From: Meridianimarinicoccus roseus
GTDB taxonomy: Bacteria; Pseudomonadota; Alphaproteobacteria; Rhodobacterales; Rhodobacteraceae
Direction: 5' to 3'
Assembly: GCF_003172915.1 (NCBI RefSeq)
Contig: NZ_QGKU01000003.1
Coordinates: forward strand, 1 to 64,000
DNA: 64,000 nt
The position numbers and the translations under genes are program-made. The notes beneath the pieces were generated by a model. That model was not told where the DNA came from, did not search any database, and was given only the letters and a program-made list of their open reading frames with translations. Shown piece after piece: positions 12,001 to 50,507 of the stretch (within the stretch, counting starts at the first letter, position 1; each line of letters starts with the position of its first letter).

Positions 12001-15000
12001 GGCGGCGAAGGTGCGTGTCACGACGCGCGCACCCGACCCGTCGGCGCCGCTGTCATCGCGCCACGCGACGGCAAACCCGCCGGTGGCAAGTGCAGTCACG
12101 ACCGGATTGTATTGCGAGGCGACCGTTGACAGGTTGACGGCGAATTCCGGGCCGGACGCCGCGCCATTGGCATCGTAAAGCTGCCCGAACACGCCGTAGC
12201 CGGAACCGTCCTGACCACCGCTGCGCCAGACGACGATGGTTTCCCCGCCCGAAAGGGTGGCGACATCGGGCACGCCCTGTTCGCTTTCGGTGTGGGCGTT
12301 CACTATGCGCTCGGGCCCGTCGACCAAAGTGCTGTCCGTTTCCGGCGAAATGCGGAGGTCGATGACCCGGCTTTGTGCCGCCGCGCCGTCCCCGTCGCTG
12401 AGGTCGATCTGAAGCCGACGCAGCGGCGCCGGATCGTCCGACGGGTTGGAGTAGCCAAGGTTGCCCAGGATCGCCTCGATTGTCTCGGGCGTCGCGTTGG
12501 CGTTCAGATCGAGGGTCAGCGGCGCTCCGTTCACCCCGTCCGAGGCAATGGTCGCGACGACCGTGCCATCCACGGACACAGTCGCGCCGATGCCAGTGCC
12601 CGAGAACGTGACCATCCCGTTGCCAACGTTGCCGGCAATCAGTCCAAGTTGGTCCTGCGCAAGGCCGTCCTGTCCGCCGAACTGGCTGATTTCGTTGAAC
12701 GTCGCGTCGATGCTCACGGAAAGGCGCCCGCCGCTGAAATCCGCGCTATCGAGGTCGCCGACCGCGACGGTGGCGTCCTCGTCCACCCGCACGAGACCCG
12801 CGTTCACATCCGCCTCGGACAAGGTGACATCCCGCGAAAGACCGTCAATCACGGGGGCGATGTTCAGTGCGAAATCCGCGGGGTCGCCAAAGATCTGCTG
12901 GAACACGCCTTCGCCGGACCCGTCGCCGGTGCTGCTTTGCCAGGCCGCCACGAAATTGCCGTTCGGGAGCGCCGCGACAGCGGGGAACTGCTGGGAGCCC
13001 GTGACGCCGCCGCTGATCGGGAACGACCCATCGATCCGCGCGCCGCTGGCGGAATAGAGCTGCCCTTCGACATCGACCGTTCCGCCGAAATCCTGCCATG
13101 CGATCAGGAAGCGCCCGTCGGTCAGTCCGGTGACCGAAGGCGACTGCTGTGTGCTGACCCGCTGGTCGTTGACGACAAACTCACCGCCGACGGGAACGGC
13201 CGACGCGTCGAACCGCTGCGCCGCGATTCCGGTTCCGCTGCCGTCCTGGCCGCTTGAATCGGCCCATGCGATGACGAAGCCGCCATCCGCCGTGGCGCCG
13301 ATGCTGGGATCAGACTGAGTGCTGAAGGTTTCAGTGTTGACCCGGAATTCAGGCCCCGCCGGGACGCCGGACGCGCTGAAAACGCGCGCAAAGATGCCGG
13401 AGGACGACCCGTCGCCTGCGCTGCCGGATGTCTGCGACGTCCATGTCGCCACAATCCGGCCATCGGCCAGAACCGTCAGCGCGACGTCCTGCTGCGTTGA
13501 GCTGGTTTCCGTGTTCACGACGATGGGGGCGCCGACTTGCGTGCCCGTCGCGTCGTAGAGGCGCATCCCGATTCCGTAGTTGCTGCCGTCGAGCCCGAAC
13601 GAGGCATAGCCGATGGCGAAACCGCCGCCCGGCAGCCCGACGACCGAAGGGTCCTCCTGCGTCGATCCGGTGTCGCCGACATTGACCAGTGTCTCGCCGC
13701 CCTGCGGCGCGCCGGTGCTGTCATAGCGCTGGAAGAAAATACCGAAGTCGTCGCCGTTGCCGTTGCCGTCCCACGCAACGATCCATCCGCCATCGGCCAG
13801 CGCTGCGACAGACGAGCTGTCCTGCGCGCGCGCCTCGGTGGTGTTCACCTGAACTTCGCCGCCGGTCGTGGCGCCGTCCGCCGTGAACCTCTGCTGGAAC
13901 ACCGCGGCACTGTCGTCATCCTGACCCGCCGAAGTCCATGTCACCACCCATCCGCCATCACTGAGCGTGGCGATGGCGACCTCGTCCTGATTGCCGGGGG
14001 TGAACGTATTGACCTGCGTCGCATCGCCCACCGGGGTTGCGCTGCCCGCATCGGGTTCGGCCGTGACCGACACGGTGAACACGAACGGCGCTGTCACGCC
14101 GCCCTGTCCGTCGACGAAGCTGGCCGAGAAGCTGACCTGCGCGGACGGATCGTCCGACGCAGTGGTATAGGTCAGCGCACCCAGAAGCACCTCTATCGCT
14201 TCGGCACTGGCGCCGGGCAGGAAGGTCAGCAACAGGTCTGCGCCCTGCTGACCATCCTCAACGATGGTGGCCACGTTGAGACCGTCCACAGTAAGCGTGG
14301 CGGGGCCATTCAGGCCGATCCGCCCGCCCGACGCCACCGACAGGCCGAATTGCGTTTCGTCGTCCGGCGCGTTGTAATCGAGGATGTCCTGCTCGGTCGA
14401 CACGCGCGTGACGCGCAGGCTTCCGCCGCCGAAATCGGTGGTGTCGGGGTCGCTTAGCGACGCGGCGCCGGCGGTGAACAGACGTGCGCCGAGATTGGCG
14501 TCGCCTTCGGCCAGAAAGATGGTGCCCGGAAGCCCGGAGATGATCGGTGCGGCCGAGGTTGCAAGTTCGGCCTGATCGCCCACGAGTTGCTTGAAGATGC
14601 CGCTGGAGGACCCGTCGCCCGCGCTGCCCGACGTGTCGGAGCGCCAGATCACCACGTGATTGCCGTCCGGCAGGGCGGTCATCACCGCCTCGTTCTGCTC
14701 CCCGCTCACCTCGGTGTTCATGCGCACCTGGCTATCGACCCGCGTGCCGTCTGCATCGAAGACCTGTGCGAACACGTCCGAGCCGCTGCCCGGTGCCGGG
14801 GTGCTGGTGTCGGTCCACGAGATGACGAACCCGCCGGTCGTCAGTGCGATGATCGCCGGATCGGTCTGGTTGCCCAAGGTCAAGTCGTTCACGCGGATCT
14901 CGCCACCGATCGCCGCGCCGGTATCGTCGAACCGCTGGTAGTAGATCCCGCCGGAACTGCCGTCCTGTGCTTCGGAGCGCCAGGCGACGACGAAATCGCC

Positions 15001-36519: not shown

Positions 36520-38157
36520 ATGCGCCTGACCGTTCTTTACCGCCTTGTCCTTGCCGCCCTTGCCGCGCTGCCTGCTTCGGCGCAGACCGACGCCTATCGT
36601 GCCGCGGGCCCGGTGTCGCGGCCTGTGCAGACCACCGCGCCCCGTGCCGACGGCCCCGGCCCGCGTTTTTCCGACATGCGTGCGGTCCTGCCCGGCCCGC
36701 AGCATGTCTATGGCGGCGGGTGGGAGCATTTCGTCGGCGGCGGGGTAGCTGTTTTCGACTGCGACGGCGATGCGCGGCCGGACCTACTGGCGGCGGGAGG
36801 CGCGGAGCCGACCACCGCATATCGCAACGTGACGCCGCCGGGCGGCGAGTTGGCGTTCGCGACGTTGGCAATCGCGCCGCTGGACGGGGTGACCGGGATC
36901 ACTGGAGCCTACCCGCTGGATATCGACAGCGATGGCGCGATGGACCTGTTCGTACTGCGCGCGGGTCCCAACATGGCGCTGCGCGGCGACGGGGCCTGTG
37001 GATTCCGCGACGCGACCGCCGACTGGGGCATTGCGCCGGGCAACGCGTGGTCCACCGCCTTCACCGCGACCTGGGAGCCGGGGGCGGACTGGCCAACGCT
37101 GGCGATCGGAAATTACGTCAACCGGGACGATCCCGACGGCCCCTTCGAGGCGTGCGATGACAATGTGCTGCTGCGCCCTGTCGGGTCGGGTTACGCGGGC
37201 CCGGTCGCGCTGTCGCCGGGCTTTTGCGCTCTGTCGGCGCTGTTCTCGGACTGGTCGCGCCAAGGGCGCGCCGACCTGCGCCTATCGAACGACCGGCACT
37301 ACTACGTGCGTGGTGGATCGGAACAGATGTGGCGCCTGTCGCCTTTGCGGCTTCTGGGCCCGCAGGACGGCTGGCGGCCTATCTCCATCTGGGGCATGGG
37401 CATCGCGAGCCGCGATCTGAACAACGACGGCCGACCGGACGTGATGCTGACTTCCATGGGAGACCAGCTTCTGCAATACGCGACCGACACGGCGGGCTAT
37501 GTGGACGCGCCATGGGGGACCGGCAGCCACGCCACGCGCCCTCATGTCGGCGATGACGGGCGCCCGTCCACCGGTTGGCACGCGCAGTTCGGCGACGTGG
37601 ACAATGACGGGCTGGCGGACCTGTTCATCGCCAAGGGCAATGTGGACCAGATGCCCGACAATGCGATGCGTGACCCCAACAATTTGCTGATGGGCCGCCC
37701 TGACGGCACCTTCGCCGAAGCCTCGGTCGCGGCCGGTATCGCCAGCACTGACCGCGCGCGCGGCGCCGCATTGGCCGATCTGGACGGCGATGGGCGGCTT
37801 GACCTTGTTGTGGTGAACCGTCGTGCCCCGCTGGAGTTGTGGCGCAATGTGACCCCGGACACCGGCGCCTGGCTTGCCCTGACGCCCCGACAGGCGGGGC
37901 CGAACACGCATGCGGTGGGCGCGTGGATCGAAGCGCGCCGCCCGGATGGGACGGTCGCGGTGCAGGAACGCACAGTCGGCGGTGGCCACGCCGGCGGGCA
38001 GGCCGGGCCCCTGCATTTCGGGCTGGGCGCGGCGGACCGCGCCGAGATCCGTATCACCTGGCCGGACGGAGCCGTGTCCGACTGGCTGAGCCTGCCCGCG
38101 CGGCAGGCCGTTACGCTGTGGCGCGACGGCGCGCGGCTGGCTGCGCGCAGCGACTAG
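36520..38157 (+). CDS. Exported FG-GAP/VCBS protein with ASPIC/UnbV domain (CRTAC1-like)
   Basis: A 545-aa protein with a signal peptide (MRLTVLYRLVLAALAALPASA, cut before QTDAY). A run of FG-GAP repeats follows with calcium-loop sequences: DCDGDARPD, DIDSDGAMD, DLNNDGRPD, DVDNDGLAD and DLDGDGRLD. A C-terminal ASPIC/UnbV domain (about residues 455-535; GAWIEARRPDGT ... IRITWPDGAVSDW) completes it. The fold is a beta-propeller acting outside the cytoplasm. Its stop codon overlaps the convergent di-haem peroxidase gene by 4 bp. Function is unknown; the pairing may be meaningful. No good Shine-Dalgarno is seen at this ATG. Confidence 0.85.
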   Translation: MRLTVLYRLVLAALAALPASAQTDAYRAAGPVSRPVQTTAPRADGPGPRFSDMRAVLPGPQHVYGGGWEHFVGGGVAVFDCDGDARPDLLAAGGAEPTTAYRNVTPPGGELAFATLAIAPLDGVTGITGAYPLDIDSDGAMDLFVLRAGPNMALRGDGACGFRDATADWGIAPGNAWSTAFTATWEPGADWPTLAIGNYVNRDDPDGPFEACDDNVLLRPVGSGYAGPVALSPGFCALSALFSDWSRQGRADLRLSNDRHYYVRGGSEQMWRLSPLRLLGPQDGWRPISIWGMGIASRDLNNDGRPDVMLTSMGDQLLQYATDTAGYVDAPWGTGSHATRPHVGDDGRPSTGWHAQFGDVDNDGLADLFIAKGNVDQMPDNAMRDPNNLLMGRPDGTFAEASVAAGIASTDRARGAALADLDGDGRLDLVVVNRRAPLELWRNVTPDTGAWLALTPRQAGPNTHAVGAWIEARRPDGTVAVQERTVGGGHAGGQAGPLHFGLGAADRAEIRITWPDGAVSDWLSLPARQAVTLWRDGARLAARSD

Positions 38158-39479
38158 CGTTCCACCGGCAGACCACTCGGCACGGCGTCGGGCACGCCCA
38201 GTCGCCCGGCGATGGCGGCCTCGTCGGTCAGGCTTTCAAGGAACGCGACCAACGCCGCGATCTCGGTCCCGGACAGTGCCACCCCCCAGTCCGTCGCAGC
38301 CTTGCGCAGCGCCGCGACCTCGGCCGGATCGTCCATTACCGCGAAATCCGATGCGCCCGGTAGCGCGGGCAGCACCGCCTGCGCGCGATTGTAGCGCTCG
38401 GGCGCGGCTTTCGGGTCGGCATGGTCGGCCACGAAGGCCTCAAGGTCCGAATAGGCGCCGTCGTGCCCCCACGGGCCGGTGCGCGCGACGTTGCGCAGGG
38501 CAGGCGTGCGAAACGCGAAAAGGTCCGCAGGGTTGGCCGTAACTCGGAAGCGCCCCTCGTCTCGGGCATGCCGTTCGAACCGTCCAACCTTGCCCGGGCC
38601 GATCTGCGGCATCCCCATCGCGTGAAAGCCGTGATCGGTCAGGAACGGGCCGGCATGGCAATCGGCGCAGCCGCTCGGCCCGTAGAACAATTCCATGCCC
38701 GCAGCTGCCGCCCCTTCCAGCGTGGCCTCGCCGCGCAAGTGGCGGTCGAAGGCGCTGTCGTCGCTGCGCCATTCGAAGGCCATGAAGGCGGCGATTGCGT
38801 TGGAGATGTCGGTGAAATGAATGTCCCCCGGCGCATCGAGGTGCGGGTAGACCTCACGGAACCGCGCCGAGTACTCCGGGATCGCGGCGACCCGGCGTGC
38901 GATGATGTCCCAAGCCCCGCCCGGCCCGGTGATGCGACCCTGCCGCACGGCCTGCGCCACATCGTTCTCGCTGTAGTGGCCCGCCATCTCGTCCTGGCTG
39001 AGCACGGGGAACATGGTCTGTGCTGAAACGATGCCGGAAAACCCGCTGGCCATATCATCTTCCAGCGGGGTGCGGAAGCCCGCCTTGCGCGTCGGGTCCA
39101 ACTCGATCCGGCCGTCGTGGAAAAGCGCGGGCAGATCCGCTGCGCCCAGGTTGAACAGCGCGGTGGAATTGCGCGGCAGCCGCCGTTCGGGCAGGTTGTC
39201 CGGGTCCGCCCTGCGGCTGGGGCCAAGGCCGATCCCGCCCTCGCCCAGCGTCAGCGAAACTCCGTCCGCCGTGGCGAAGCGCGGATGATGACATGATGCG
39301 CAGGAAATGTTCCGGTTGCCCGACAGGATCGGGTCGTAGAACAGCAGCCAGCCCAACCGCGCCTCGTCCTCGTTCACGGGTATGAAATCCGCGTCGGACA
39401 GCGGGCGTGGCAACCCGTCGCTGTGCGCGGCGGGTGCGCACAGAAACAGGGCCAGCAGCAACAAGCGAAAAGTGGTCAT
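38154..39479 (-). CDS. Di-haem cytochrome c peroxidase / MauG-family protein
   Basis: A 441-aa periplasmic protein with a signal peptide (MTTFRLLLLALFLCAPAAHS). Two haem c attachment motifs are present, CASCH (C60, C63, H64) and CADCH (C271, C274, H275). Between them are the family segments RNSTALFNLG, LFHDGRIELDP and SAQTMFPVLSQDEMAGH, which mark the MauG/CCP superfamily. Members either reduce hydrogen peroxide or carry out oxidative protein maturation; sequence alone does not decide. Convergent with the FG-GAP/ASPIC protein. Confidence 0.88.
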   Translation of the reverse strand: MTTFRLLLLALFLCAPAAHSDGLPRPLSDADFIPVNEDEARLGWLLFYDPILSGNRNISCASCHHPRFATADGVSLTLGEGGIGLGPSRRADPDNLPERRLPRNSTALFNLGAADLPALFHDGRIELDPTRKAGFRTPLEDDMASGFSGIVSAQTMFPVLSQDEMAGHYSENDVAQAVRQGRITGPGGAWDIIARRVAAIPEYSARFREVYPHLDAPGDIHFTDISNAIAAFMAFEWRSDDSAFDRHLRGEATLEGAAAAGMELFYGPSGCADCHAGPFLTDHGFHAMGMPQIGPGKVGRFERHARDEGRFRVTANPADLFAFRTPALRNVARTGPWGHDGAYSDLEAFVADHADPKAAPERYNRAQAVLPALPGASDFAVMDDPAEVAALRKAATDWGVALSGTEIAALVAFLESLTDEAAIAGRLGVPDAVPSGLPVER

Positions 39480-39546: not shown

Positions 39547-40692
39547 TCACATCAGCGCTTCGAAAAGGGCGCGGGTGTTTTCGCCCGTCATCTCGACCGG
39601 GTTTCCGCCGGTGCTGGGATCGCGCAACGCAGCCGCTGTGAGCGCCTCGAGGTCGGGACTGTGCACCCCCAGATCTGTGAGCGTCGCCGGAATTCCCAGC
39701 CCCGCGTTCAGGTCGTCCACGAAACGGCAAAAGCCGTCGAACCCCCCGGCAATCCCCAGATACGCCGCCGCCATGTCGAACCGGGCCGCAATGGCGGGCG
39801 CATTGAACTGCAGGACGGCGGGCATGCACACGGCATTGGTTGTGCCGTGGTGGGTGTGGTGCACCGCGCCGATCGGATGGCTCAGCGCGTGGATCGCTCC
39901 AAGACCCTTTTGGAACGCGGTCGCGCCCATTGCTGCCGCTGACATCATGTGCGCGCGCGCCTCGATGTCGGTGCCGTCGGCATAGGCGCGCGGCAGGTAG
40001 TCCTTCACCAGGCGCATCCCTTCCAGCGCGATGCCCTGGCTCATCGGATGATAATGCGGGGAGCTAAAGGCTTCCACGCAATGCGCGAAGGCATCAAGGC
40101 CGGTCCCGGCTGTGATCGCGGGCGGCATCCCGATGGTGAGTTCCGGATCGCAGATCACCTGCGCAGGAAGCATCTTGGGGTGGAAGATAATCTTCTTCTC
40201 GTGCGTGTCCTCGTTGGTGATCACGCCCGCGCGACCGACCTCGGACCCGGTGCCCGCCGTGGTCGGAATCGCGACGATGGGCGCGATGCCCGCCGGGTCG
40301 GCTCGGGTCCACCAGTCGCCGATGTCCTCGAAATCCCACAGCGGGCGGGTTTGCCCGGCCATGAAGGCCAGCACCTTGCCAAGATCGAGGCCAGAGCCTC
40401 CCCCGAAGGCGACCACGCCGTCGAAGCCGCCCTCGCGCATCACGCGCAGCCCGTTCTCCACGTTGCGGCCCGACGGGTTGGCGTCCACGTCGGAAAAGAT
40501 CGCGCGGCCCAGTCCCGCGGCTTCCAGAAGGTCCAGCGCGGCGGCCGTGATCGGCAGGCCTGCAAGCCCGCGGTCGGTGACCAGAAGCGGCTGTGACATG
40601 CCGGCAGCGCGGCACGCGTCGGGCAGTTCGGAAATGCGGCCCGCGCCGAAGCGCACGGCGGTCGGGTAGGACCAGTTGCCAACCAGTTTCAT
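39547..40692 (-). CDS. Iron-containing alcohol dehydrogenase
   Basis: A 381-aa group III NAD(P)-dependent dehydrogenase. Visible are the nucleotide-binding GGGSGLDLGK (residues 97-106), IPTTAGTGSEVGRAGVIT (143-160), and metal ligands D200, H204, H268 and H282 (in TAGTGLDAFAHCVEAFS and AIHALSHPIGAVHHTHHG). It is the last gene of the seven-gene operon from 47284, 3 bp after the aldehyde dehydrogenase. With that gene it can convert an alcohol group to an acid in two steps. Substrate not predictable; see the operon finding. Confidence 0.92.
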   Translation of the reverse strand: MKLVGNWSYPTAVRFGAGRISELPDACRAAGMSQPLLVTDRGLAGLPITAAALDLLEAAGLGRAIFSDVDANPSGRNVENGLRVMREGGFDGVVAFGGGSGLDLGKVLAFMAGQTRPLWDFEDIGDWWTRADPAGIAPIVAIPTTAGTGSEVGRAGVITNEDTHEKKIIFHPKMLPAQVICDPELTIGMPPAITAGTGLDAFAHCVEAFSSPHYHPMSQGIALEGMRLVKDYLPRAYADGTDIEARAHMMSAAAMGATAFQKGLGAIHALSHPIGAVHHTHHGTTNAVCMPAVLQFNAPAIAARFDMAAAYLGIAGGFDGFCRFVDDLNAGLGIPATLTDLGVHSPDLEALTAAALRDPSTGGNPVEMTGENTRALFEALM

Positions 40693-40695
40693 CTG

Positions 40696-42069
40696 TCAGC
40701 CCTTCTTGAGGTGGTAGGATTTCGGCCGGGTCAACGCCTGGTAGCCTAGCATGGACAGGCCGGTGCCGCGCCCGGTGTCTTTGCAGCCGGTCCAGCATAG
40801 CGCCGGGTCGAGATAATCGCAGCGGTTCATGAACACGGTGCCTGTGCGCAGCCGTGCCCCTATCCGGTCCGCCGCCGCTGCGTCGCGGGTGTATATGGCG
40901 GCAGTCAGGCCGAACTGACAATCGTTCATCAGCGCGATCGCCTCTTCGTCGCCGCCGACCGGCATGATGCCGACCACCGGGCCGAAACTTTCCTCGCGCA
41001 TCACGGCCATATCGTGGGTGACCCCGGTCAGCACCTGCGGCGTCAGGTAGGCCCCGCCGTCATCGGCCTTGAAGGTCGGCACATGGGCCGTCGCCCCCGC
41101 CGCGACGGCATCGGCGATCTGGGCGCGCACAACCTGCGCGAAGCGCACATGGGCCATCGGCCCCAGCGTCGTTTCCGGGTCAAGCGGATTGCCCAGCACC
41201 ATGCCGCGCGCGACCGATACCGCCTTTTCGACGAAGGCGTCGAACAAGCTTTCATGGACGTAGATCCGTTCGATTCCGCAGCAGCACTGGCCGGAATTGA
41301 ACAGCGCGCCGTCCATCAGACCGTCCACGGCGGCGTCGAGGTCGGCATCCTCGCGCACATAGCCCGGGTCCTTGCCGCCGAGTTCGGTGCTGACCGCGGC
41401 GAAGGTTCCGGCGGCCGCGCGTTCGATCGCACGCCCGCCGCCGACCGATCCGGTGAAGTTGACAAAGTCGAAGGCACGCGACGCGATCAGGGCACTCGTC
41501 GTGTCATGGTCCAGCACGACGTTCTGGAATACGTCCTCGGGCACGCCCGCCGCGTGGAACGCTTCGGCCAGATGCTCGCCGACAAGCAGCGTTTGCGTGG
41601 CATGTTTCAGCACGACCGCGTTGCCTGCGATCAGCGCGGGTGCCAGCGTGTTGATCGCCGTCATGTAGGGATAGTTCCACGGCGCCACAATTAGCACGGT
41701 GCCTTGCGGCTCGCGGGCGATCTTGCGCAGGAAGCGGTCGCTGTCTTCGATCACGGTGGGCGCCAGCGCCTCGGGCGCGATGTCGGCCATGTAGTCGGCG
41801 CGTTCCTTGAAGCCGCCATATTCGCCGCCATAGCGCACCGGGCGACCCATCTGGTGCGCGAGTTCTGTGGCCATGCGGTCCGTCTGGGTGCCGATGATCT
41901 CGACCGCACGGCGCACCAGCGCGATGCGGTCGGACAGCAGCCGTGCGGCCCAGTCGGGCTGCGCGGCCCGCGCGCGTGAGGCGGCGTCCTGTGCCGCTTC
42001 GGCGGAGAGGATGGGGCGGCGGGCATGGACCGAGCCGTCGATGGGCGAGATGCAGTCGAGCGTTCTCAC
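40696..42069 (-). CDS. Aldehyde dehydrogenase (NAD(P)+)
   Basis: A 457-aa ALDH-superfamily enzyme with VLIVAPWNYPY (residues 125-135), FTGSVGGGRAI, catalytic E229 in STELGGKDPGY and catalytic C263 in NSGQCCCGIERIYV. The frame is open further upstream, to 42306, but that part overlaps the GS-like gene in another frame. The GTG at 42069 with AAAGGAA 7 nt before it gives the family's normal start (RTLDCISPIDGSV). It sits 55 bp after the GS-like gene and 3 bp before the iron alcohol dehydrogenase. Confidence 0.92.
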   Translation of the reverse strand: MRTLDCISPIDGSVHARRPILSAEAAQDAASRARAAQPDWAARLLSDRIALVRRAVEIIGTQTDRMATELAHQMGRPVRYGGEYGGFKERADYMADIAPEALAPTVIEDSDRFLRKIAREPQGTVLIVAPWNYPYMTAINTLAPALIAGNAVVLKHATQTLLVGEHLAEAFHAAGVPEDVFQNVVLDHDTTSALIASRAFDFVNFTGSVGGGRAIERAAAGTFAAVSTELGGKDPGYVREDADLDAAVDGLMDGALFNSGQCCCGIERIYVHESLFDAFVEKAVSVARGMVLGNPLDPETTLGPMAHVRFAQVVRAQIADAVAAGATAHVPTFKADDGGAYLTPQVLTGVTHDMAVMREESFGPVVGIMPVGGDEEAIALMNDCQFGLTAAIYTRDAAAADRIGARLRTGTVFMNRCDYLDPALCWTGCKDTGRGTGLSMLGYQALTRPKSYHLKKG

Positions 42070-42124
42070 GTCGTTTCCTTTGGATGGCGCGCCGACGCGC
42101 GGCGCAGTCGTTGCAGGGTTGCGG

Positions 42125-43486
42125 TCAGGCCTTCTCGAAGCCACGCGCGATTTCCCAGTCGGTGACGGCGCGGTCGAACTCTTCCTGCTCCCATTCCGCG
42201 CAACGGGTGTAGTGGTCAACCACCCCGTCGCCGAAGGCGGCCCGCAGCATGGCCGAGCTGCGAAGCGTTTCGGTCGCCTCGCGCAGGCTGCGCGGTACTT
42301 CCTCACCGTCGCTGTCGTAGATGTCGCCGCTCATCGGCGGCGCGAGGTCCAGCCTCTCCTCGATACCCTTCAGGCCCGCGGCCAGCATCGCCGCTTGCGC
42401 GAGATAGGGATTGAGGTCTGACCCGCCGATGCGGCACTCCACGCGCACGCCGGGCGTGCCGTCACCGCACAGGCGGAAGGCGGCGGTGCGGTTGTCCACC
42501 GACCATGCGGTGCGGGTCGGTGCGAAGGTGCCCTTGGCGAAACGCTTGTAGCTGTTCACGTAGGGCGCAAGAAAGAAGGTGTAGTCAGCGGCATAGGCGA
42601 TCAGCCCGGCAAGATAGGCGCGCATCAGCGCCGACATGCCAAGTTCGGCCTGCGGGTCGAAGAAGGCGGGCGCGCCGTCGCGCCACAGGGATTGGTGCAC
42701 ATGGCTTGAGCTGCCGACACGGCCCGGCGCGAGCTTGGACAGGAAACTGGCGGCATGGCCATGCTGCCAGGCGATTTCCTTGACCGCGTGCTTGGCGATG
42801 GTGTGGTGATCGGCGCAGGCCAGCGCGTCCGCGTAGCGGATGTTCAGTTCTTCCTGCCCGGCCTCGGCCTCGCCCTTGGTGCCTTCCACTGGAATGCCCG
42901 CTGCGGCAAGGTGATTGCGCACCGGGCGCAGGATCTTCTCCTCCTTGGTGGTGGCGAAGATGTGGTAATCCTCGTTGTACTTGCCCAGCGGGGTCAGGTC
43001 GCGGAAGCCGCCTGCCCGGATCTCGTCCAGCGACTTGTCAAACAGGAAGAATTCCAGTTCCGTCGCCATAACGGGCGCAAGGCCCATCGCTTCGGCACGG
43101 GCGACCTGTGCCTTGAGCATGGCGCGCGGGTCGTGCGGCACAGGCGCGTGGGCGTGATGGTCGAGGATGTCGCACAGCACCATCGCCGTGCCGTCGAGCC
43201 ACGGCACCGGGCGCAGCGTGTCGAGGTCGGGCTGCATGATGTAATCGCCATAGCCCTTGGCCCAGCTGGACGCGGCATAGCCGTCAGGCGTGGCCATCTC
43301 AAGGTCGGTCGCCAGAAGGTAGTTGCAGCAATGAGTTTCGTGGTGGGAATGGTCCACGAAGTTGCGGGCGTGAAAGCGCTTGCCCATCAATCGGCCCTGC
43401 ATGTCGGTGAAACATGCCAGCACGGTGTCGATGCGGCCCTCGGCCACGGCGGTCTTCAGGTCGTCGAAACTCAGCACGGCGGGCAT
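42125..43486 (-). CDS. Glutamine synthetase-like gamma-glutamyl-amine ligase
   Basis: A 453-aa GS-fold enzyme of the PuuA/IpuC type rather than housekeeping GlnA. GS landmarks are present: ATELEFFLFD (E143, E145), GEAEAGQEELNIRYADAL, GSSSHVHQSLW (H262/H264), then AFRLCGDGTPGVRVE and GGSDLNPYLAQAAMLAAGLKG. The N-terminal beta-grasp is short and there is no adenylylation-site signature. Relatives glutamylate polyamines, ethanolamine or other amines with ATP. Neighbouring ALDH and iron-ADH genes and a TRAP transporter point to catabolism of an imported amine or amino alcohol. Confidence 0.9.
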   Translation of the reverse strand: MPAVLSFDDLKTAVAEGRIDTVLACFTDMQGRLMGKRFHARNFVDHSHHETHCCNYLLATDLEMATPDGYAASSWAKGYGDYIMQPDLDTLRPVPWLDGTAMVLCDILDHHAHAPVPHDPRAMLKAQVARAEAMGLAPVMATELEFFLFDKSLDEIRAGGFRDLTPLGKYNEDYHIFATTKEEKILRPVRNHLAAAGIPVEGTKGEAEAGQEELNIRYADALACADHHTIAKHAVKEIAWQHGHAASFLSKLAPGRVGSSSHVHQSLWRDGAPAFFDPQAELGMSALMRAYLAGLIAYAADYTFFLAPYVNSYKRFAKGTFAPTRTAWSVDNRTAAFRLCGDGTPGVRVECRIGGSDLNPYLAQAAMLAAGLKGIEERLDLAPPMSGDIYDSDGEEVPRSLREATETLRSSAMLRAAFGDGVVDHYTRCAEWEQEEFDRAVTDWEIARGFEKA

Positions 43487-43515
43487 GGGTCTTCCTGCTT
43501 GTGGTCGAAATAGGC

Positions 43516-43542
43516 GCCGACCCCGTGCGATACGGGGTCGGC
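43516..43542 (-). terminator. Intercistronic hairpin after dctP
   Basis: GCCGACCCCGT (43516-43526) and ACGGGGTCGGC (43532-43542) form a perfect 11-bp stem with a 5-nt loop, 17 nt after the dctP stop and 29 nt before the GS-like gene. Only TATTT follows on the minus strand. It is a strong candidate for partial termination or 3'-end protection of the binding-protein mRNA. Confidence 0.6.
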
Positions 43543-43559
43543 CGATGTGTAGGCGGGGA

Positions 43560-44600
43560 TCACTCGAAGTTGTAGGGCGGTCCGGCCTGGTTGATGACCT
43601 CGTTGTAGTCGCGGAAGATCTGCACGATCTTGGCGTGGGTCTCGCTTTCCTCGGCGATCTCGTTCCAGAACTCCTTCGCGGCGTCTTCGACCACCGCCCA
43701 TTCGTCGGCCGGAACCGACCGCAGCGCCAGCTTGTCGCCCTGCGCGCGCAGTCGTGCCTCGCCGCCCCAGTACCACTGGTTGCGGTAGGTGTGCCCGGCT
43801 TCGATCGAGGCCATCACAAGCTGCTTGAGGTGGTCGGGCAGTTCTGCCCAGCGTTCCTGGTTCACGAAGAATGATCCGATCCACGCGCCCGAGATGTTGT
43901 TGGTCAGGAAATAGTCGGTCACATCCGCCCAACCGACGGTGTAATCCTCGGTGATGCCGGACCAGGCCATGCCGTCCAGTTCCCCGGTCTGCACAGCGAC
44001 TTCGGCATCCTCGTAGGGGATGTTCACCGACACGACGCCGAACTTGGCAAGGAAGCGGCCCGCTGTCGGGAAGGTATAGAGCCGCAGACCGTCGAGATCG
44101 TCGACCGACGTGATTTCCTTGGTGGTGTTGAAGTTGCAAGGGTCCTGTCCCGCCGCCGACAGCCACTGCACGCCGACCTTGGCGTATTCCTCGCGCCAGA
44201 TGTCGGCAAGACCGTACTGGTTGAACAGCACTGGCACGTCGAGGATGTGCTTGGTGGCGAAGGGGAAGTAGCCGCCGAACACGCGCAGCGGCGTGGGCGA
44301 GGCCATGCTGTCGTCGTCCGAATGCACGCCGTCGATGGTGCCGCGCTGAAGCGCCTGGAACAGCTCGCCCGTGGGCACGATCTGGTCAGCGTAGAACAGC
44401 TCGATCTCCAACTCGCCCTGTGCGGCGGCGTTGATGTAATCGATGATCGGCTTGGTCACCTGCTCGCCAAGCGCGGCGCCGGCATAGGTCTGGAACCGCC
44501 AGCGGATCGGGGCCTGCGCCTTGACGATGGCCGGGGCCGCCAGCGGTACCGCCAGCGCGCCAGCGCCGGTCGCCGTCAGGAACTTGCGTCTCGTTGTCAT
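43560..44600 (-). CDS. dctP: TRAP transporter substrate-binding protein DctP
   Basis: A 346-aa periplasmic solute receptor of the DctP family. The N-terminus MTTRRKFLTATGAGALAVPL has a Tat-type twin-arginine motif (RRKFL) and a cleavage site near IVKAQA. Family features include QTYAGAALGEQVTKPIIDYI, FYADQIVPTGELFQALQRG and the central LDGLRLYTFPTAGRFLAKFG. The upstream frame to 44708 is rejected: AGGAGAGAGAGTGAC directly precedes the ATG at 44600, which yields the signal sequence. It lies between dctM and the GS-like gene. Ligand unknown. Confidence 0.92.
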   Translation of the reverse strand: MTTRRKFLTATGAGALAVPLAAPAIVKAQAPIRWRFQTYAGAALGEQVTKPIIDYINAAAQGELEIELFYADQIVPTGELFQALQRGTIDGVHSDDDSMASPTPLRVFGGYFPFATKHILDVPVLFNQYGLADIWREEYAKVGVQWLSAAGQDPCNFNTTKEITSVDDLDGLRLYTFPTAGRFLAKFGVVSVNIPYEDAEVAVQTGELDGMAWSGITEDYTVGWADVTDYFLTNNISGAWIGSFFVNQERWAELPDHLKQLVMASIEAGHTYRNQWYWGGEARLRAQGDKLALRSVPADEWAVVEDAAKEFWNEIAEESETHAKIVQIFRDYNEVINQAGPPYNFE

Positions 44601-44670
44601 GTCACTCTCTCTCCTGTTGGTAAGGGGTCGGATCGGTCCTTGCAGTGTCCCGTTCGCCGGGATCGTTGTA

Positions 44671-45996
44671 TCAGTTTCCATAGACGACACCCGGCAGCCA
44701 CAGCGCAAGCCCGGGGAATACCATCACCAGCACCAGCGCGCAGACCATCACCAGCACAAAGGGTGTGATCGACCCGTAAATGTCGCGCAGCGTGATCTCG
44801 GGCGGGGCCATCGCCCGCATCAGGAACAGGTTGTAGCCGAAGGGCGGCGTCATGTAGGCGATCTGGCAGGTGATCGTGTAGAGGATTCCGTACCAGACAA
44901 GGTCGAAGCCAAGTTGTCCGACCAATGGCACGTAAAGCGGCGCCACGATGACCAACATTGCTGTATCGTCAAGAAACGTGCCCATCAGGATGAAGCTGAG
45001 TTGCATCAGTATCAGGATCACCCAGGGATTCAGCCCCAGCCGTTCGGTAAAGAGCGCCTCGATGGCCTTCACCGCTCCAAGACCGTCGAATACCGCTCCG
45101 AAGGCGAGCGCGGCAAGGATGATCCACATGAACATGCAGGTGATCCCGAGCGTGTTGCGCACGCTCGTTTCGAACACGTCGCGGGTCATGCGGCCCTTGG
45201 CGACCGCAACGAGGAATGCCGTGATCGCCCCGATGGCCGAGCTTTCAACCAGCGAGGTCCAGCCGTTGACGAAGGGCACCATCATGGCCGCGAAGATGCC
45301 CAGCGGCAGCAGGCCCGCACGCAACAGGCGGAGCTTCTCGGCCCGGCCGACATCGCGGTCCTCGGCGGGCAGCACGGGGCCGAGTTCGGGTTGCAGCCGA
45401 CAGCGCACGACGATGTAGAGGATGAAAAGCGCCGCCATCATCAATCCCGGCACCACCCCGGCCAGCCACAACTGCCCGACCGGCTGGCGCGCGATCATCG
45501 CATAGAGCACGAGCACCACCGAAGGCGGCACGAGGATGCCGAGGCTGGAGCCCGCCTGGATCACGCCAGTGACCATCCGCTTGTCATAGCCGCGTTTCAG
45601 CAGTTCTGGCAGCGCGATGGTGGCCCCGATCGCCATGCCCGCCACGCTGAGCCCGTTCATGGCCGACACCAGCACCATCAGTCCGATGGTGCCCACTGCC
45701 AGTCCGCCCCGCAGCCCGCCCATCCAGACATGGAACATCCGGTACAGGTCGTCCGCGATGCGGCTTTCGGACAGCACGTAGCCCATGAAGATGAACATCG
45801 GCAGTGTCAGCAGTGGGTACCATTTCATCAACTTCATCGCTGCCGAGAAACCCAGGTCGTACCCGCCTCGGTCGCCCCACAGCAGAAGCGCGGCCATCAC
45901 CGCAACGAAGCCAATGGCCCCGAAGACGCGCTGCCCGGTCAACAGCATCAGCATCATTGTTGAGAACATCAGTGCCGCGATCATCTCGTAGGGCAT
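44671..45996 (-). CDS. dctM: TRAP transporter large permease DctM
   Basis: A 441-aa membrane protein with about 12-13 hydrophobic segments. DctM-type motifs are visible, such as LPMFIFMGYVLSESRIADDLYR, the SAMNGLSVAGMAIGA and GSSLGILVPPSVVLVLYAMI blocks, and near the C-terminus MGTFLDDTAMLVIVAPLYVP and TPPFGYNLFLM. The ATG at 45996 overlaps the dctQ stop by one base; the longer frame upstream is dctQ in another register. Together with DctQ and DctP it forms a sodium-coupled importer. Confidence 0.93.
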   Translation of the reverse strand: MPYEMIAALMFSTMMLMLLTGQRVFGAIGFVAVMAALLLWGDRGGYDLGFSAAMKLMKWYPLLTLPMFIFMGYVLSESRIADDLYRMFHVWMGGLRGGLAVGTIGLMVLVSAMNGLSVAGMAIGATIALPELLKRGYDKRMVTGVIQAGSSLGILVPPSVVLVLYAMIARQPVGQLWLAGVVPGLMMAALFILYIVVRCRLQPELGPVLPAEDRDVGRAEKLRLLRAGLLPLGIFAAMMVPFVNGWTSLVESSAIGAITAFLVAVAKGRMTRDVFETSVRNTLGITCMFMWIILAALAFGAVFDGLGAVKAIEALFTERLGLNPWVILILMQLSFILMGTFLDDTAMLVIVAPLYVPLVGQLGFDLVWYGILYTITCQIAYMTPPFGYNLFLMRAMAPPEITLRDIYGSITPFVLVMVCALVLVMVFPGLALWLPGVVYGN

Positions 45997-46505
45997 CAGA
46001 CGGGCTCTCCCTTCAGGCGCAGGATGTCCTTGGCCAGTTCGGATAGCGCCTGCAACAGCATCAGCGCGATCGCGAAAACCATGATGCACTTGATCGGCCA
46101 CAGGTAGGGGCGCCACGCCGTCGGGCTGCGTTCGCCGCCGTACTGGAACGAATAGATCGTGCTGTCGATCCCGCCCCACAGCAGAATGCCGAGATAGGTG
46201 ATCAGGAACAGCACGGTCAGCGCGTCGACCTGTGCCTTGCGACGGTCCGACCAGTTTCCGTACAGCAGATCCATGCGCACGTTCGACCCCATCTGGATCG
46301 AGTAGGGTCCTCCCAGCATGTAATAGGCGACCATGGCGAACTGCGCCATTTCGAGTGTCCAGAGCGACGGCACGAAGAAGGTCTTGGACACGGACGACCA
46401 CAGCAGGATCGCCATGATCACGAAGATGCCGTACATCACAACCCGTCCGATGCGGTAGTTGACGCCATCGACAACGCGCACGAAGCCCCGCAGCGCCCCG
46501 GTCAT
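45996..46505 (-). CDS. dctQ: TRAP transporter small permease DctQ
   Basis: A 169-aa protein with four predicted membrane helices (about 20-42, 54-70, 94-114, 134-154) and the DctQ motifs FFVPSLWTLEMAQFAM and GSNVRMDLLYG. It starts in an ATGA overlap with the stop of the amidohydrolase-like gene and ends overlapping dctM, so the four transporter-operon genes are co-translated. Confidence 0.92.
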   Translation of the reverse strand: MTGALRGFVRVVDGVNYRIGRVVMYGIFVIMAILLWSSVSKTFFVPSLWTLEMAQFAMVAYYMLGGPYSIQMGSNVRMDLLYGNWSDRRKAQVDALTVLFLITYLGILLWGGIDSTIYSFQYGGERSPTAWRPYLWPIKCIMVFAIALMLLQALSELAKDILRLKGEPV

Positions 46506-47284
46506 GCCGACCCCTGTTCGGTCACGCCGAGGTCGGCCAGCGCAGTGCCCAGCAGCGCCGACAGGCGGACCACCGCAGCCCCTACGCCCTGCTGGTCGCG
46601 GATCAGGTCGTTGCGCAACTCGATCATCACGTTAAGCATCCCCTGCGGTGCAGCATGTCGGTCGAGCGTGTGCAGCACCCCGTCCTGCGGACCGTAAGGC
46701 GCATTCAGTGCGCAAAGCCAGCCCGTCTGGCCCGTGTGCACCAGCATCGAACGTGCCAGTCTGTCGTCGTCGCCATGTAGCAGGCCCAGTTCCACGTCCC
46801 GCGGTGTGCCGTTGTAGACTGGTGTGAAACTGTGCACCGTCACCAGGACGGTCGGCCGGGTCCGCGCGGCCAACAGCGTGGCAAGCGCGTCGTGGAACGG
46901 TTCGTAGACCAGAGCCGTGCGGCGCGCGCGTTCGGCCTGCGGCAGATCCTGGTTTCCAGGGATCTCGAAAACCTCGCTGCGGGCGGGGATCGCGTCATGC
47001 GCCTCGGGTGGGCGGTTGCAGTCATAGACCAATCGCGAAAGGCGCCCGGCAACCAGCGGCGCATCGAGCCGCTCGGACAGCCCGCGCGCCAGATCGAGCG
47101 CGCCGATGTCCCAGGCGACGTGCGACTGCGCCGCGACTGGGCCAAGGCCCAGTCCATCGAGCGCGGGCGGGATCGTGCGGCTGGCGTGTTCGCACACCAG
47201 CACGATCGGCGCGCGTCCACCGGGGTTGGAAACGGCCACCGCAGGGCCGAAGTCGTTGTCGGATCGGGAAGGAGAGAACCGCAT
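46502..47284 (-). CDS. N-formylglutamate amidohydrolase-like zinc hydrolase
   Basis: A 260-aa member of the N-formylglutamate amidohydrolase family (HutG/FGase fold). Visible are LVCEHASRTIPPAL with a likely zinc histidine, SHVAWDIGALDLARGLSERL, VYDCNRPPEAHDAIPARSE, VTVHSFTPVY and the C-terminal NVMIELRNDLI. The known reaction releases the acyl group from N-formyl-L-glutamate in histidine breakdown. No hut genes are nearby; it leads the TRAP/GS-like operon, so the real substrate may be a different acyl- or glutamyl-amide. Confidence 0.88.
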   Translation of the reverse strand: MRFSPSRSDNDFGPAVAVSNPGGRAPIVLVCEHASRTIPPALDGLGLGPVAAQSHVAWDIGALDLARGLSERLDAPLVAGRLSRLVYDCNRPPEAHDAIPARSEVFEIPGNQDLPQAERARRTALVYEPFHDALATLLAARTRPTVLVTVHSFTPVYNGTPRDVELGLLHGDDDRLARSMLVHTGQTGWLCALNAPYGPQDGVLHTLDRHAAPQGMLNVMIELRNDLIRDQQGVGAAVVRLSALLGTALADLGVTEQGSA

Positions 47285-47285
47285 G

Positions 47286-47301
47286 TGTAGACACCACTAC
47301 A
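47286..47301. promoter_or_regulatory. Operator 1 of the RpiR-controlled operon (inferred)
   Basis: TGTAGACACCACTACA, an inverted repeat with TGTAG/CTACA arms, lies directly before the ATG of the amidohydrolase-like gene. It shares the pattern GTAGAC-n4-CTACA with the second site 43 bp away. Overlap with the start of the operon mRNA suits repression. Confidence 0.6.
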
Positions 47302-47328
47302 TTATTTCAAATCCTGTCAAGAAATTTT

Positions 47329-47344
47329 CGTAGACGGGTCTACA
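47329..47344. promoter_or_regulatory. Operator 2 of the RpiR-controlled operon (inferred)
   Basis: CGTAGACGGGTCTACA contains the perfect palindrome GTAGAC-GG-GTCTAC (47330-47343), 23 bp upstream of the regulator's start. The start-to-start distance of 43 bp from operator 1 is about four helical turns, so two regulator dimers could sit on the same face. Confidence 0.6.
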
Positions 47345-47366: not shown

Positions 47367-48263
47367 ATGGTGAAGAACAAGGCAATCGATGTGCCCGTTA
47401 ACGGCAAGACGGTAAAATCGCTCATGCGTGACAGGATGGCCGACTTGACGCTTTCAGAGCGTCACCTGGCCAGCGTGCTGATGCAGGACTACCCGATCGC
47501 GGGGCTGCAATCGATCACGGAACTGGCCCAGGCGGCGCATGTGTCCACCCCGACCGTGGTGCGTATGGCGCGCAAGCTGGGCTTCGACGGGTTCTCGGCC
47601 CTGCAGGAGGCGCTGCGCGCCGAGATCTCGGACCAGATCAAGAAACCGATCTCGAAGCTGGACGAAATCTCGGGCGAGGATCAGGCTGCGCACAAGCTCT
47701 ATCGCTTCGCGGCGGCCGTGTTCCGCAACCTGCATGAAACGCTGGCGCGGATCGACGAGAGCGAATTCGACGCGGTCGCCGCCCTGCTTGCCGATCCTTC
47801 GCGCGCGATCTTCATCGAAGGTGGCCGGATCACCCGGTCGAACGCGGACTACCTTTTCAACCACATGCAGATCATCCGCCCCGGTGTCACCGCACTTGGC
47901 CGGAGTCCGGGCATCTGGCCGCAGTTCCTGCTGGACATGGATACCTCCTCCGTGCTGGTGCTGTTCGACATCCGCCGCTACGAAAGCGACCTTCTGAAGC
48001 TGGCCAAGCTGGCAAAGGCACGGGGCTGCCGGATCGTTCTGTTCACCGACCAGTGGGGGTCGCCCATAGGGCAGCTGGCCGATCACAGTTTCCACGGACT
48101 CGTGGAAGCGCCGTCAAGCTGGGACAGCACCATCGCCCTTATGCTGCTGATCGAAGCGCTGATCGCCGAGGTGCAGACACGGCTGGCGGGCGAAAGCCGC
48201 ACGCGGATCGAGCAACTGGAATCGATGTTCACCGCCACGCGGATGTTCCGGGACTTCAACTGA
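47367..48263 (+). CDS. MurR/RpiR-family transcriptional regulator
   Basis: A 298-aa regulator with an N-terminal RpiR helix-turn-helix (about residues 20-85; LTLSERHLASVLM, then SITELAQAAHVSTPTVVRMAR, KLGFDGFSALQEALR) and a C-terminal SIS domain (about 130-260; AIFIEGGRITRSNADYLFNHM, VLVLFDIRRYESDLLKLA). SIS domains usually sense a phosphosugar or related metabolite. It is divergent from the TRAP/GS-like operon with two shared palindromic sites between, so it is its likely regulator. The start at 47367 gives MVKNKAIDVPVNGKTVKSLM; an internal start at the LMRDRMADL segment is possible. Confidence 0.87.
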   Translation: MVKNKAIDVPVNGKTVKSLMRDRMADLTLSERHLASVLMQDYPIAGLQSITELAQAAHVSTPTVVRMARKLGFDGFSALQEALRAEISDQIKKPISKLDEISGEDQAAHKLYRFAAAVFRNLHETLARIDESEFDAVAALLADPSRAIFIEGGRITRSNADYLFNHMQIIRPGVTALGRSPGIWPQFLLDMDTSSVLVLFDIRRYESDLLKLAKLAKARGCRIVLFTDQWGSPIGQLADHSFHGLVEAPSSWDSTIALMLLIEALIAEVQTRLAGESRTRIEQLESMFTATRMFRDFN

Positions 48264-48335
48264 CCGCGCCCGCGGTCTCTTGAACCCGTCATGGCAAGGG
48301 GCTACTCCCGCACCGGATATCACCCGGAGGACCAT

Positions 48336-50507
48336 ATGACCCAGCAACCGACCCAGCCGCAGATCGACCGTGTGGACCGCGCCGGCCTTCAGGTCGCGCG
48401 TGTGCTGGCCGAGTTCATCGAGGATGCGGCCCTCCCGGGCACAGGCGTTGCCGCCGACGCATTCTGGTCGGGCCTTGCCGCGTTGCAACACGATCTGGGC
48501 CCGCGCAACGCCGAGCTACTGGCGACGCGCGACGCGCTTCAGAAGCAAATCGACGCGTGGCACGTAAAACGGCGCAACCAGCCGCACGACCACGAGGCCT
48601 ACAAGGCGTTCCTGACCGAAATCGGCTATCTGCGCCCCGAAGGCGGCGATTTCTGCGTCGAGACAGCCAATGTCGACCCTGAGATCGCGACTGTGCCGGG
48701 TCCGCAGCTTGTCGTGCCGATCACCAATGCCCGCTATGCGCTGAACGCGGCCAACGCGCGCTGGGGCAGTCTGTATGACGGGCTCTACGGCACCGACGCG
48801 ATGGGCAGCCTGCCGCCGGCGGGCGGATATGACCGGGGCCGCGGCGCGCGGGTCGTGGCACGGGTGCGCGTCTTCCTCGACGAGGCGTTTCCGCTTGAAG
48901 GCGCGAGCCATGCCGACGCGCGCCGCTACCACGTCCATGACGGTGCGCTTCTGGTCGATGACATGCCGCTGTCGCAGCCCGAGAAATTCGTTGGCTATCG
49001 CGGGCATCCCCGCGCGCCGGAGGCGGTGCTGCTGCGCAACAACGGGCTGCACGTGGAACTGGTGTTCGACCGCACCCACCCGATCGGCAGCCGCGACCAG
49101 TGCGGCCTTGCCGATGTTCGGCTGGAAAGCGCCGTGTCCGCGATCATGGATTGCGAGGACAGCGTCGCCTGCGTCGATGCCGAGGACAAGGTGCTGGCCT
49201 ATCGCAACTGGCTTGGTCTGATGAAGGGTGATCTGACCGAAAAGGTCGAAAAGGGCGGCCGCACCATCACCCGCGCGCTTAGCCCCGATCCGGTCTTCAC
49301 AGCGCCACACGGAGGTGAGGTCGCGGTCAAGGGCCGGGCGCTCATGCTGGTGCGCAATGTCGGCCACCTGATGACCAATCCCGCGATCCTCGACCGCGAC
49401 GGCAACGAGATCTTCGAAGGCCTGATGGACGCTATGATCACGGCGCTCATCGCCAAGCATGACCTGGCCAAGACGGACGGACCGCGCAATTCGGTGGCCG
49501 GGTCGGTTTATGTGGTCAAGCCCAAGATGCACGGTCCCGACGAGGTCGCCTTCGCGGGCGAGATCTTCGCCCATGTCGAGAAAGTGCTGGGCCTTCCGCC
49601 CTATACCGTAAAGCTGGGTATCATGGACGAGGAGCGCCGCACCTCCGTCAATCTGAAGGAGTGTATCCGCGCGGCGCTGCACCGGGTATGCTTCATCAAC
49701 ACCGGATTTCTGGACCGCACAGGCGACGAGATCCACACCTCGATGGAGGCCGGACCGTTCTCGCGGAAGGATTTCATCAAACGCAAGGGCTGGATCACCG
49801 CCTACGAGAACCAGAATGTCGATATCGGGCTGGAATGCGGCCTGTCCGGCCGCGCGCAGATCGGCAAGGGCATGTGGGCCATGCCCGACCGGATGGCGGC
49901 GATGGTCGAAACCAAGATCGAACACCCGAAAGCGGGCGCCAACTGTGCCTGGGTGCCAAGCCCCACGGCGGCCACGCTGCACGCGCTGCATTACCACCGG
50001 GTCGATGTGTTCGCGGTGCAGGACACGCTGAAAAAGGGCGGGCGCCGGGCTTATGTGGATGCGCTTTTGGGCATCCCCGTTGCGAGCTTCCGCAAGTGGA
50101 GCAGCGCGCAGATCCGGCGCGAGGTCGAAAACAACGCGCAAGGCATCCTCGGCTACGTCGTGCGTTGGATCGACCAGGGGGTCGGGTGTTCCAAGGTGCC
50201 CGACATCAACGACGTTGGTCTGATGGAAGACCGCGCGACCTGCCGCATCTCTGCCCAGCACATCGCCAACTGGCTGCATCACGGCGTCATCGGCGAGGCC
50301 GAGACGATGGAGATCATACAAAAGATGGCCGAGGTGGTGGACCGCCAGAACGCGGGCGATCCGGCCTATGTGCCGATGGCGCCCGGATTCGACGGGATCG
50401 CCTTCCGTGCGGCCTGCGATCTGGTCTTCCTCGGGGCACAGCAGCCGTCGGGCTACACCGAACCGGTGCTGCACGCGCGGCGGATTGAACGCAAGGCGCA
50501 GGCCTGA
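48336..50507 (+). CDS. glcB: Malate synthase G
   Basis: A 723-aa single-chain malate synthase of the G type, joining glyoxylate and acetyl-CoA to malate. Recognisable regions are [34 protein letters not shown] split across strands, the Mg/catalytic acidic stretch [53 protein letters not shown] and the C-terminal [15 protein letters not shown] with [13 protein letters not shown]. The ATG at 48336 has GGAGG 9 nt upstream; the frame extends to 48291 without a ribosome site. It is followed closely by a GlcG-like gene, which fits glycolate/glyoxylate use. Confidence 0.97.

Follow-up and report, generated by a model that had tools for sequence, protein, structure and literature searches.

A predicted ethanolamine (eto) operon of Meridianimarinicoccus roseus with a diverged EtoX type and a candidate RpiR operator

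Gene content of the locus

The first 64,000 nucleotides of contig NZ_QGKU01000003.1 of Meridianimarinicoccus roseus (assembly GCF_003172915.1), hereafter the window, carry a seven-gene operon on the minus strand (39547-47284) with a divergent RpiR gene on the plus strand, which we interpret as an operon for the use of ethanolamine (eto). A Pfam search of the window placed next to the regulator a hydrolase of the FGase (N-formylglutamate amidohydrolase) family (46502-47284; PF05013, 1.8e-42), a predicted gamma-glutamylglycine amidohydrolase (GGAH). It is followed by the genes for a tripartite ATP-independent periplasmic (TRAP) transporter, namely the small permease EtoV (DctQ; 45996-46505, PF04290), the large permease EtoW (DctM; 44671-45996, PF06808) and the predicted ethanolamine-binding protein EtoX (DctP; 43560-44600, best PDB chain 4UAB). 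Three enzyme genes complete the minus-strand series: a glutamine synthetase (GS)-like ligase, the predicted ethanolamine gamma-glutamylase ETAGA (42125-43486; PF00120, Gln-synt_C; best PDB chain 5DM3), an aldehyde dehydrogenase (ALDH) with a GTG start at 42069, the predicted gamma-glutamylacetaldehyde-amide dehydrogenase (40696-42069; PF00171), and an iron-containing alcohol dehydrogenase (iron-ADH), the predicted gamma-glutamylethanolamide dehydrogenase (39547-40692; PF00465 and PF25137). The RpiR-family regulator, the counterpart of MED193_10021, lies at 47367-48263 on the plus strand (PF01418, HTH_6, and PF01380, SIS). The FGase and dctQ genes overlap by 4 nt and dctQ and dctM by 1 nt, and the remaining gaps from dctM to the ADH gene are 70, 73, 55 and 3 nt, spacings that assume, for each of DctP, DctM and ALDH, one of several open starts. 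An initial annotation of the window had described seven same-strand genes under a divergent RpiR gene, and the Pfam search bore out all of its families and strands.

Correspondence to the published eto operon

The order RpiR / FGase-DctQ-DctM-DctP-GS-ALDH-Fe-ADH matches that printed for Phaeobacter sp. MED193 in the operon passages of Westermann et al. 2023 (PMC10132767), where MED193_10021-10056 are given as RpiR, GGAH, EtoV, EtoW, EtoX, ETAGA, GAADDH and GETADH. According to the same passages, phosphorylethanolamine raised five proteins of the MED193 operon, GGAH included, MED193 EtoX binds ethanolamine with a Kd of 7.9 uM and shows no binding of PE, G1P, G3P or PC, and the MED193 genes have close relatives in C. 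salexigens and A. tumefaciens whose function has been demonstrated (PMC10132767). The four-enzyme Pfam set listed for C. salexigens (PF00120, PF00465, PF00171 and PF05013; PMC9397018, in Table 2) was likewise found in the window. We consider it very likely, with a probability of about 0.92, that the window's gene set is an eto operon converting ethanolamine to glycine, each enzyme step here being predicted from sequence.

Ethanolamine is a component of membrane lipids. In the proposed pathway, periplasmic EtoX would bind ethanolamine and the TRAP permease EtoVW would bring it into the cell, where the GS-like ligase is predicted to form, at the expense of ATP, an amide between the amino group of ethanolamine and the gamma-carboxyl group of glutamate. 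The iron-ADH would then oxidise the hydroxyl of the glutamylated ethanolamine to the aldehyde and the ALDH would convert this aldehyde to gamma-glutamylglycine, which the FGase-family enzyme would split into glycine and glutamate, leaving the glutamate to be reused. The divergent RpiR protein probably senses ethanolamine or a pathway intermediate and may act at a TGTA-N8-TACA site in the shared promoter.

The C. salexigens pathway (Csal_0678) shares the four enzyme families with the window, and window EtoX aligns best among PDB chains to 4UAB (E 1.1e-143; 207/317 aligned residues identical, 65.3%), which, like 4XF5, is presumably the Chromohalobacter ethanolamine-binding protein Csal_0678, the search output itself naming no organism. 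The study cited for the function of the C. salexigens and A. tumefaciens genes is Vetting et al., reportedly of 2015. A further likeness is found in the GlnA4 cluster of S. coelicolor (SCO1611-1615), which combines a GS-like ligase, two dehydrogenases and an FGase-family enzyme predicted to be a gamma-glutamylglycine amidohydrolase; this cluster differs from that of the window in being actinobacterial, and the passages of PMC6529630 that describe it mention no TRAP importer. The MED193 operon is closer, agreeing with the window in its eight genes, their order, the RpiR gene at the head and the proposed pathway. It probably differs in its EtoX: the window has a second type, and the first is carried by Phaeobacter sp. 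B1627 (L054), our stand-in for MED193.

Related marine bacteria are thus already known to have this operon, and neither its substrate nor its design is new. The chemistry put forward in the initial annotation, namely glutamylation of an amino alcohol, oxidation by iron-ADH and ALDH and cleavage of the amide by an FGase-family enzyme, agrees with the published ethanolamine pathway. The substrate that it had called unknown is named for the same operon in print (PMC10132767), and the two features that it had thought new have precedents: the coupling to a TRAP importer appears in the operon passages of PMC10132767, as does the FGase-fold step, which is also found as a proposal in Table 2 of PMC9397018 and in the cluster passages of PMC6529630. 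We have removed the claim of novelty; the operon instead gains its proper name and a tie to the marine use of phospholipid headgroups.

Conservation in relatives

Related loci were fetched with the FGase protein, taking the best 80 of 114, a sample that leans to close FGases. In 39 of these 80 loci the best tblastn matches reproduce the window's arrangement, with all eight genes collinear and in matching orientation, and because order and orientation are kept to this extent the arrangement is not due to chance. The co-conservation that the initial annotation had proposed to look for in other genomes is therefore present. A further 30/80 loci hold RpiR-FGase-GS-ALDH-ADH and no TRAP genes; L017, the lone TRAP-less locus in which a gap was inspected, has an AA_permease_2 transporter inside it, and in L035 this gap is missing. 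In nine of the 80 loci (L007, L008, L016, L033, L052, L062, L071, L077 and L079) the contig ends at, or no more than about 100 nt beyond, the last matched gene. Two more, L031 and L057, show the FGase and TRAP genes only, L057 being a short contig and the L031 genome holding GS-ALDH-ADH together at another location. EtoX was found at E <= 1e-60 in 23 of 61 genomes (the window's own and 60 relatives), including 5/7 genomes of the window's genus, its own among them. The eto system is widespread, not universal.

Two of the relatives carry an additional open reading frame within the operon. In Ruegeria spongiae (L009, 13782-15497), a gene for a Na+/Pi-cotransporter with a PhoU domain stands between etoX and the GS-like gene, an arrangement that would be consistent with import of the phosphate as well as the ethanolamine moiety of phosphorylethanolamine. 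In L028, an extra open reading frame is located between the dctM and dctP genes at about 12600-13365.

Two types of EtoX and alternative readings

The passages of PMC4646407 on DctP-family binding sites report an equivalent of Arg-147 in 96.8% of 6142 DctP-family sequences, and state that Csal_0678 binds ethanolamine and is without this equivalent. In the alignment, window EtoX has Tyr175 at this usual carboxylate-binding Arg position, and the genome's other DctP proteins have Arg in 7/8 and Ala in 1/8, 8 of 12 being alignable (L086, L092, L094 and L096 gave no match). Analysis of EtoX across 46 rows, made up of the window and 45 of the 80 loci (L008 and L077 were dropped at <85% coverage), separated two types with 100/100 support and 21 segregating positions. 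The window carries the rarer type (11/46 rows), the one further from 4UAB and from the Phaeobacter relative. The Arg-147 position is occupied by Phe in 34 of the 46 rows and by Tyr in the other 12: all 11 window-type rows have Tyr and 34/35 others have Phe, the remaining row, L076, having Tyr and grouping with the other type. Position 152 is Gln in all 11 window-type rows and Trp in 35/35 others. 4UAB, which lies outside the tree, has the other type's residues at two of the separating positions, namely Phe at the equivalent of Arg-147 and Trp at that of the window's Gln152.

Such a diverged, well-supported clade, with its Tyr and Gln, could mark a changed substrate, the operon then handling a relative of ethanolamine (alaninol, 1-amino-2-propanol or 3-aminopropanol) by the same steps. 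The make-up of four other loci argues against this reading, which we regard as improbable. In L041 and L047 a window-type EtoX is accompanied by seven genes whose closest matches all come from other-type operons: RpiR, FGase, DctQ, DctM, GS and ALDH are nearest L052 and ADH is nearest L072 (as L041 and L047 are near-copies, the nearest member was sought among the other loci). Identities to the nearest member are 77-81% for FGase, 98% for RpiR and 95% for GS, and the identity of EtoX to any other-type member does not exceed 69%. In L013 and L028, RpiR, FGase and the three enzymes are likewise nearest other-type operons; DctQ is not, and DctM is about even. Apparently, then, EtoX alone was exchanged in L041/L047, and perhaps EtoX together with DctQ in L013/L028. 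The occurrence of one EtoX type among neighbours like those of the other is what a common pathway for both types would predict, and such a common pathway is the simplest reading. The window itself is no mosaic, all eight of its genes being nearest L006, which has the same EtoX type. We also entertain, as a rather unlikely possibility, that the pocket of the second type is altered in shape and admits ligands other than, or in addition to, ethanolamine, and that operons shift uptake by swapping EtoX while the enzymes stay.

A reading further still from the ethanolamine assignment would take the locus as a HutG/GlnA housekeeping set that makes glutamine or degrades N-formylglutamate and has an unrelated TRAP transporter as its neighbour. 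It draws on the Pfam-level family names only, and we rejected it as barely credible on the profile scores and the GS residues. The FGase protein scores 24.3 bits against HutG (N-formylglutamate deformylase, TIGR02017) at a cut-off of 278.75, and its sole PDB match is 2ODF (Atu2144; 125/239 identical, 52.3%). The GS-like protein, which is 71.5% identical to its best PDB chain 5DM3 (321/449), reaches 237.2 bits against GlnA (TIGR00653; cut-off 429.15) and also stays below the cut-off for PuuA, the gamma-glutamylputrescine synthetase (NF045547; 202.2 bits, cut-off 650). The genome in addition holds one other FGase, which scores 253.8 bits against PF05013, and a GS that scores 444.4 bits against PF00120. 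Furthermore, the GS-like protein has Gly and Phe at the D50 and E327 columns, in place of the Asp and Glu of the genome's best-scoring GS (L001); we placed these columns by known motifs, the D50 column lying in a poorly aligned stretch and the Y179 column, which falls in a gap, being left unused. The same loss of the D50/E327 acids is reported for GlnA4 and PauA7 in the residue comparison of PMC6529630. This residue test speaks against glutamine synthesis and gives no pointer to ethanolamine.

Several points weigh against the assignment as an eto operon. The three other GS-like proteins of the genome are also without the D50/E327 acids, and window EtoX falls in a clade apart from that holding the Phaeobacter sequence, from which it is set off by the 21 segregating positions. 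In MED193 itself, the proteomic passages record that EtoX rose also without any phosphorus source, so not by ethanolamine alone (PMC10132767), the figure legend terms the pathway 'predicted', and the FGase step, as far as the passages cited here present it, stands in print as a prediction together with proteomic induction.

The two EtoX types are a small, testable addition to what has been described, and surveys that use etoX as a marker of ethanolamine use should allow for two diverged types. A second etoX-like match was found in none of the 80 loci. EtoX relatives (E <= 1e-80) also occur on 17 plasmid records, 7 of them from Paracoccus, which is uninformative on function; the closest, at 92.8% identity, comes from Rhodobacteraceae bacterium SC52, on a record of 391 kb.

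A candidate RpiR operator

Alignment with relatives of the region between the divergent genes revealed a candidate RpiR operator, TGTA-N8-TACA (O1, 47286-47301), which ends 1 nt before the FGase ATG, and a candidate second operator with one mismatch to this motif (O2, 47329-47344). O1 is the sole exact TGTA-N8-TACA in the 64-kb window. Sites were scanned in 77 of the 80 loci (L031 and L057 have no RpiR match and L076 has a gap >400 nt), and the motif occurs 17 times in 17,833 RpiR-FGase intergenic bases compared to 2 times in the remaining 1,463,860 bases of the same loci, an enrichment that is not a blind test, as TGTA-N8-TACA was chosen after viewing an alignment of 12 regions. Exact sites are present in 11/77 loci, comprising 11/45 with a DctM match and 0/32 without; the other 66 have none. 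In 6 of the 11 the sites form a pair with a spacing of 43-44 nt (the assemblies L015 and L033 come from a single species). An exact search with the longer half-site TGTAGAC/GTCTACA gave 4 matches only in the 77 intergenic regions, and the looser TGTA-N8-TACA was the better description. We infer that TGTA-N8-TACA is a candidate RpiR operator, again a small and testable addition. A literature search for an ethanolamine RpiR operator returned PMC10132767, as a match without the word operator, and a neuraminic acid sensor paper, as a match without ethanolamine; a further search returned PMC10132767 alone.

The stretch separating O1 from O2 contains a TTGACA box, which begins 36 nt upstream of the FGase ATG. 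This ATG, 1 nt from O1, has no room for a ribosome-binding site (47284-47320), and L006, L009 and L028 have an ATG at the same place. Possible explanations are a leaderless FGase transcript and a translation start at a later codon.

Flanking genes

Between 38000 and 48400, a sigma-70 scan found no promoter and terminators were not in excess (5 observed, 5.4 expected). A gene for a CCP_MauG-type di-haem cytochrome c peroxidase (38154-39479, minus strand) lies 67 nt beyond the operon on the same strand, and convergent to it is a gene for an FG-GAP/UnbV_ASPIC protein (36520-38157, plus strand). On the other side, a malate synthase G gene (48291-50507, plus strand) lies directly behind the RpiR gene. 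These three genes are unlikely members of the operon, as matches to them (to E 1e-20) stand beside it in L006 only of the 80 loci, 66 of which extend >1.5 kb beyond the ADH gene.

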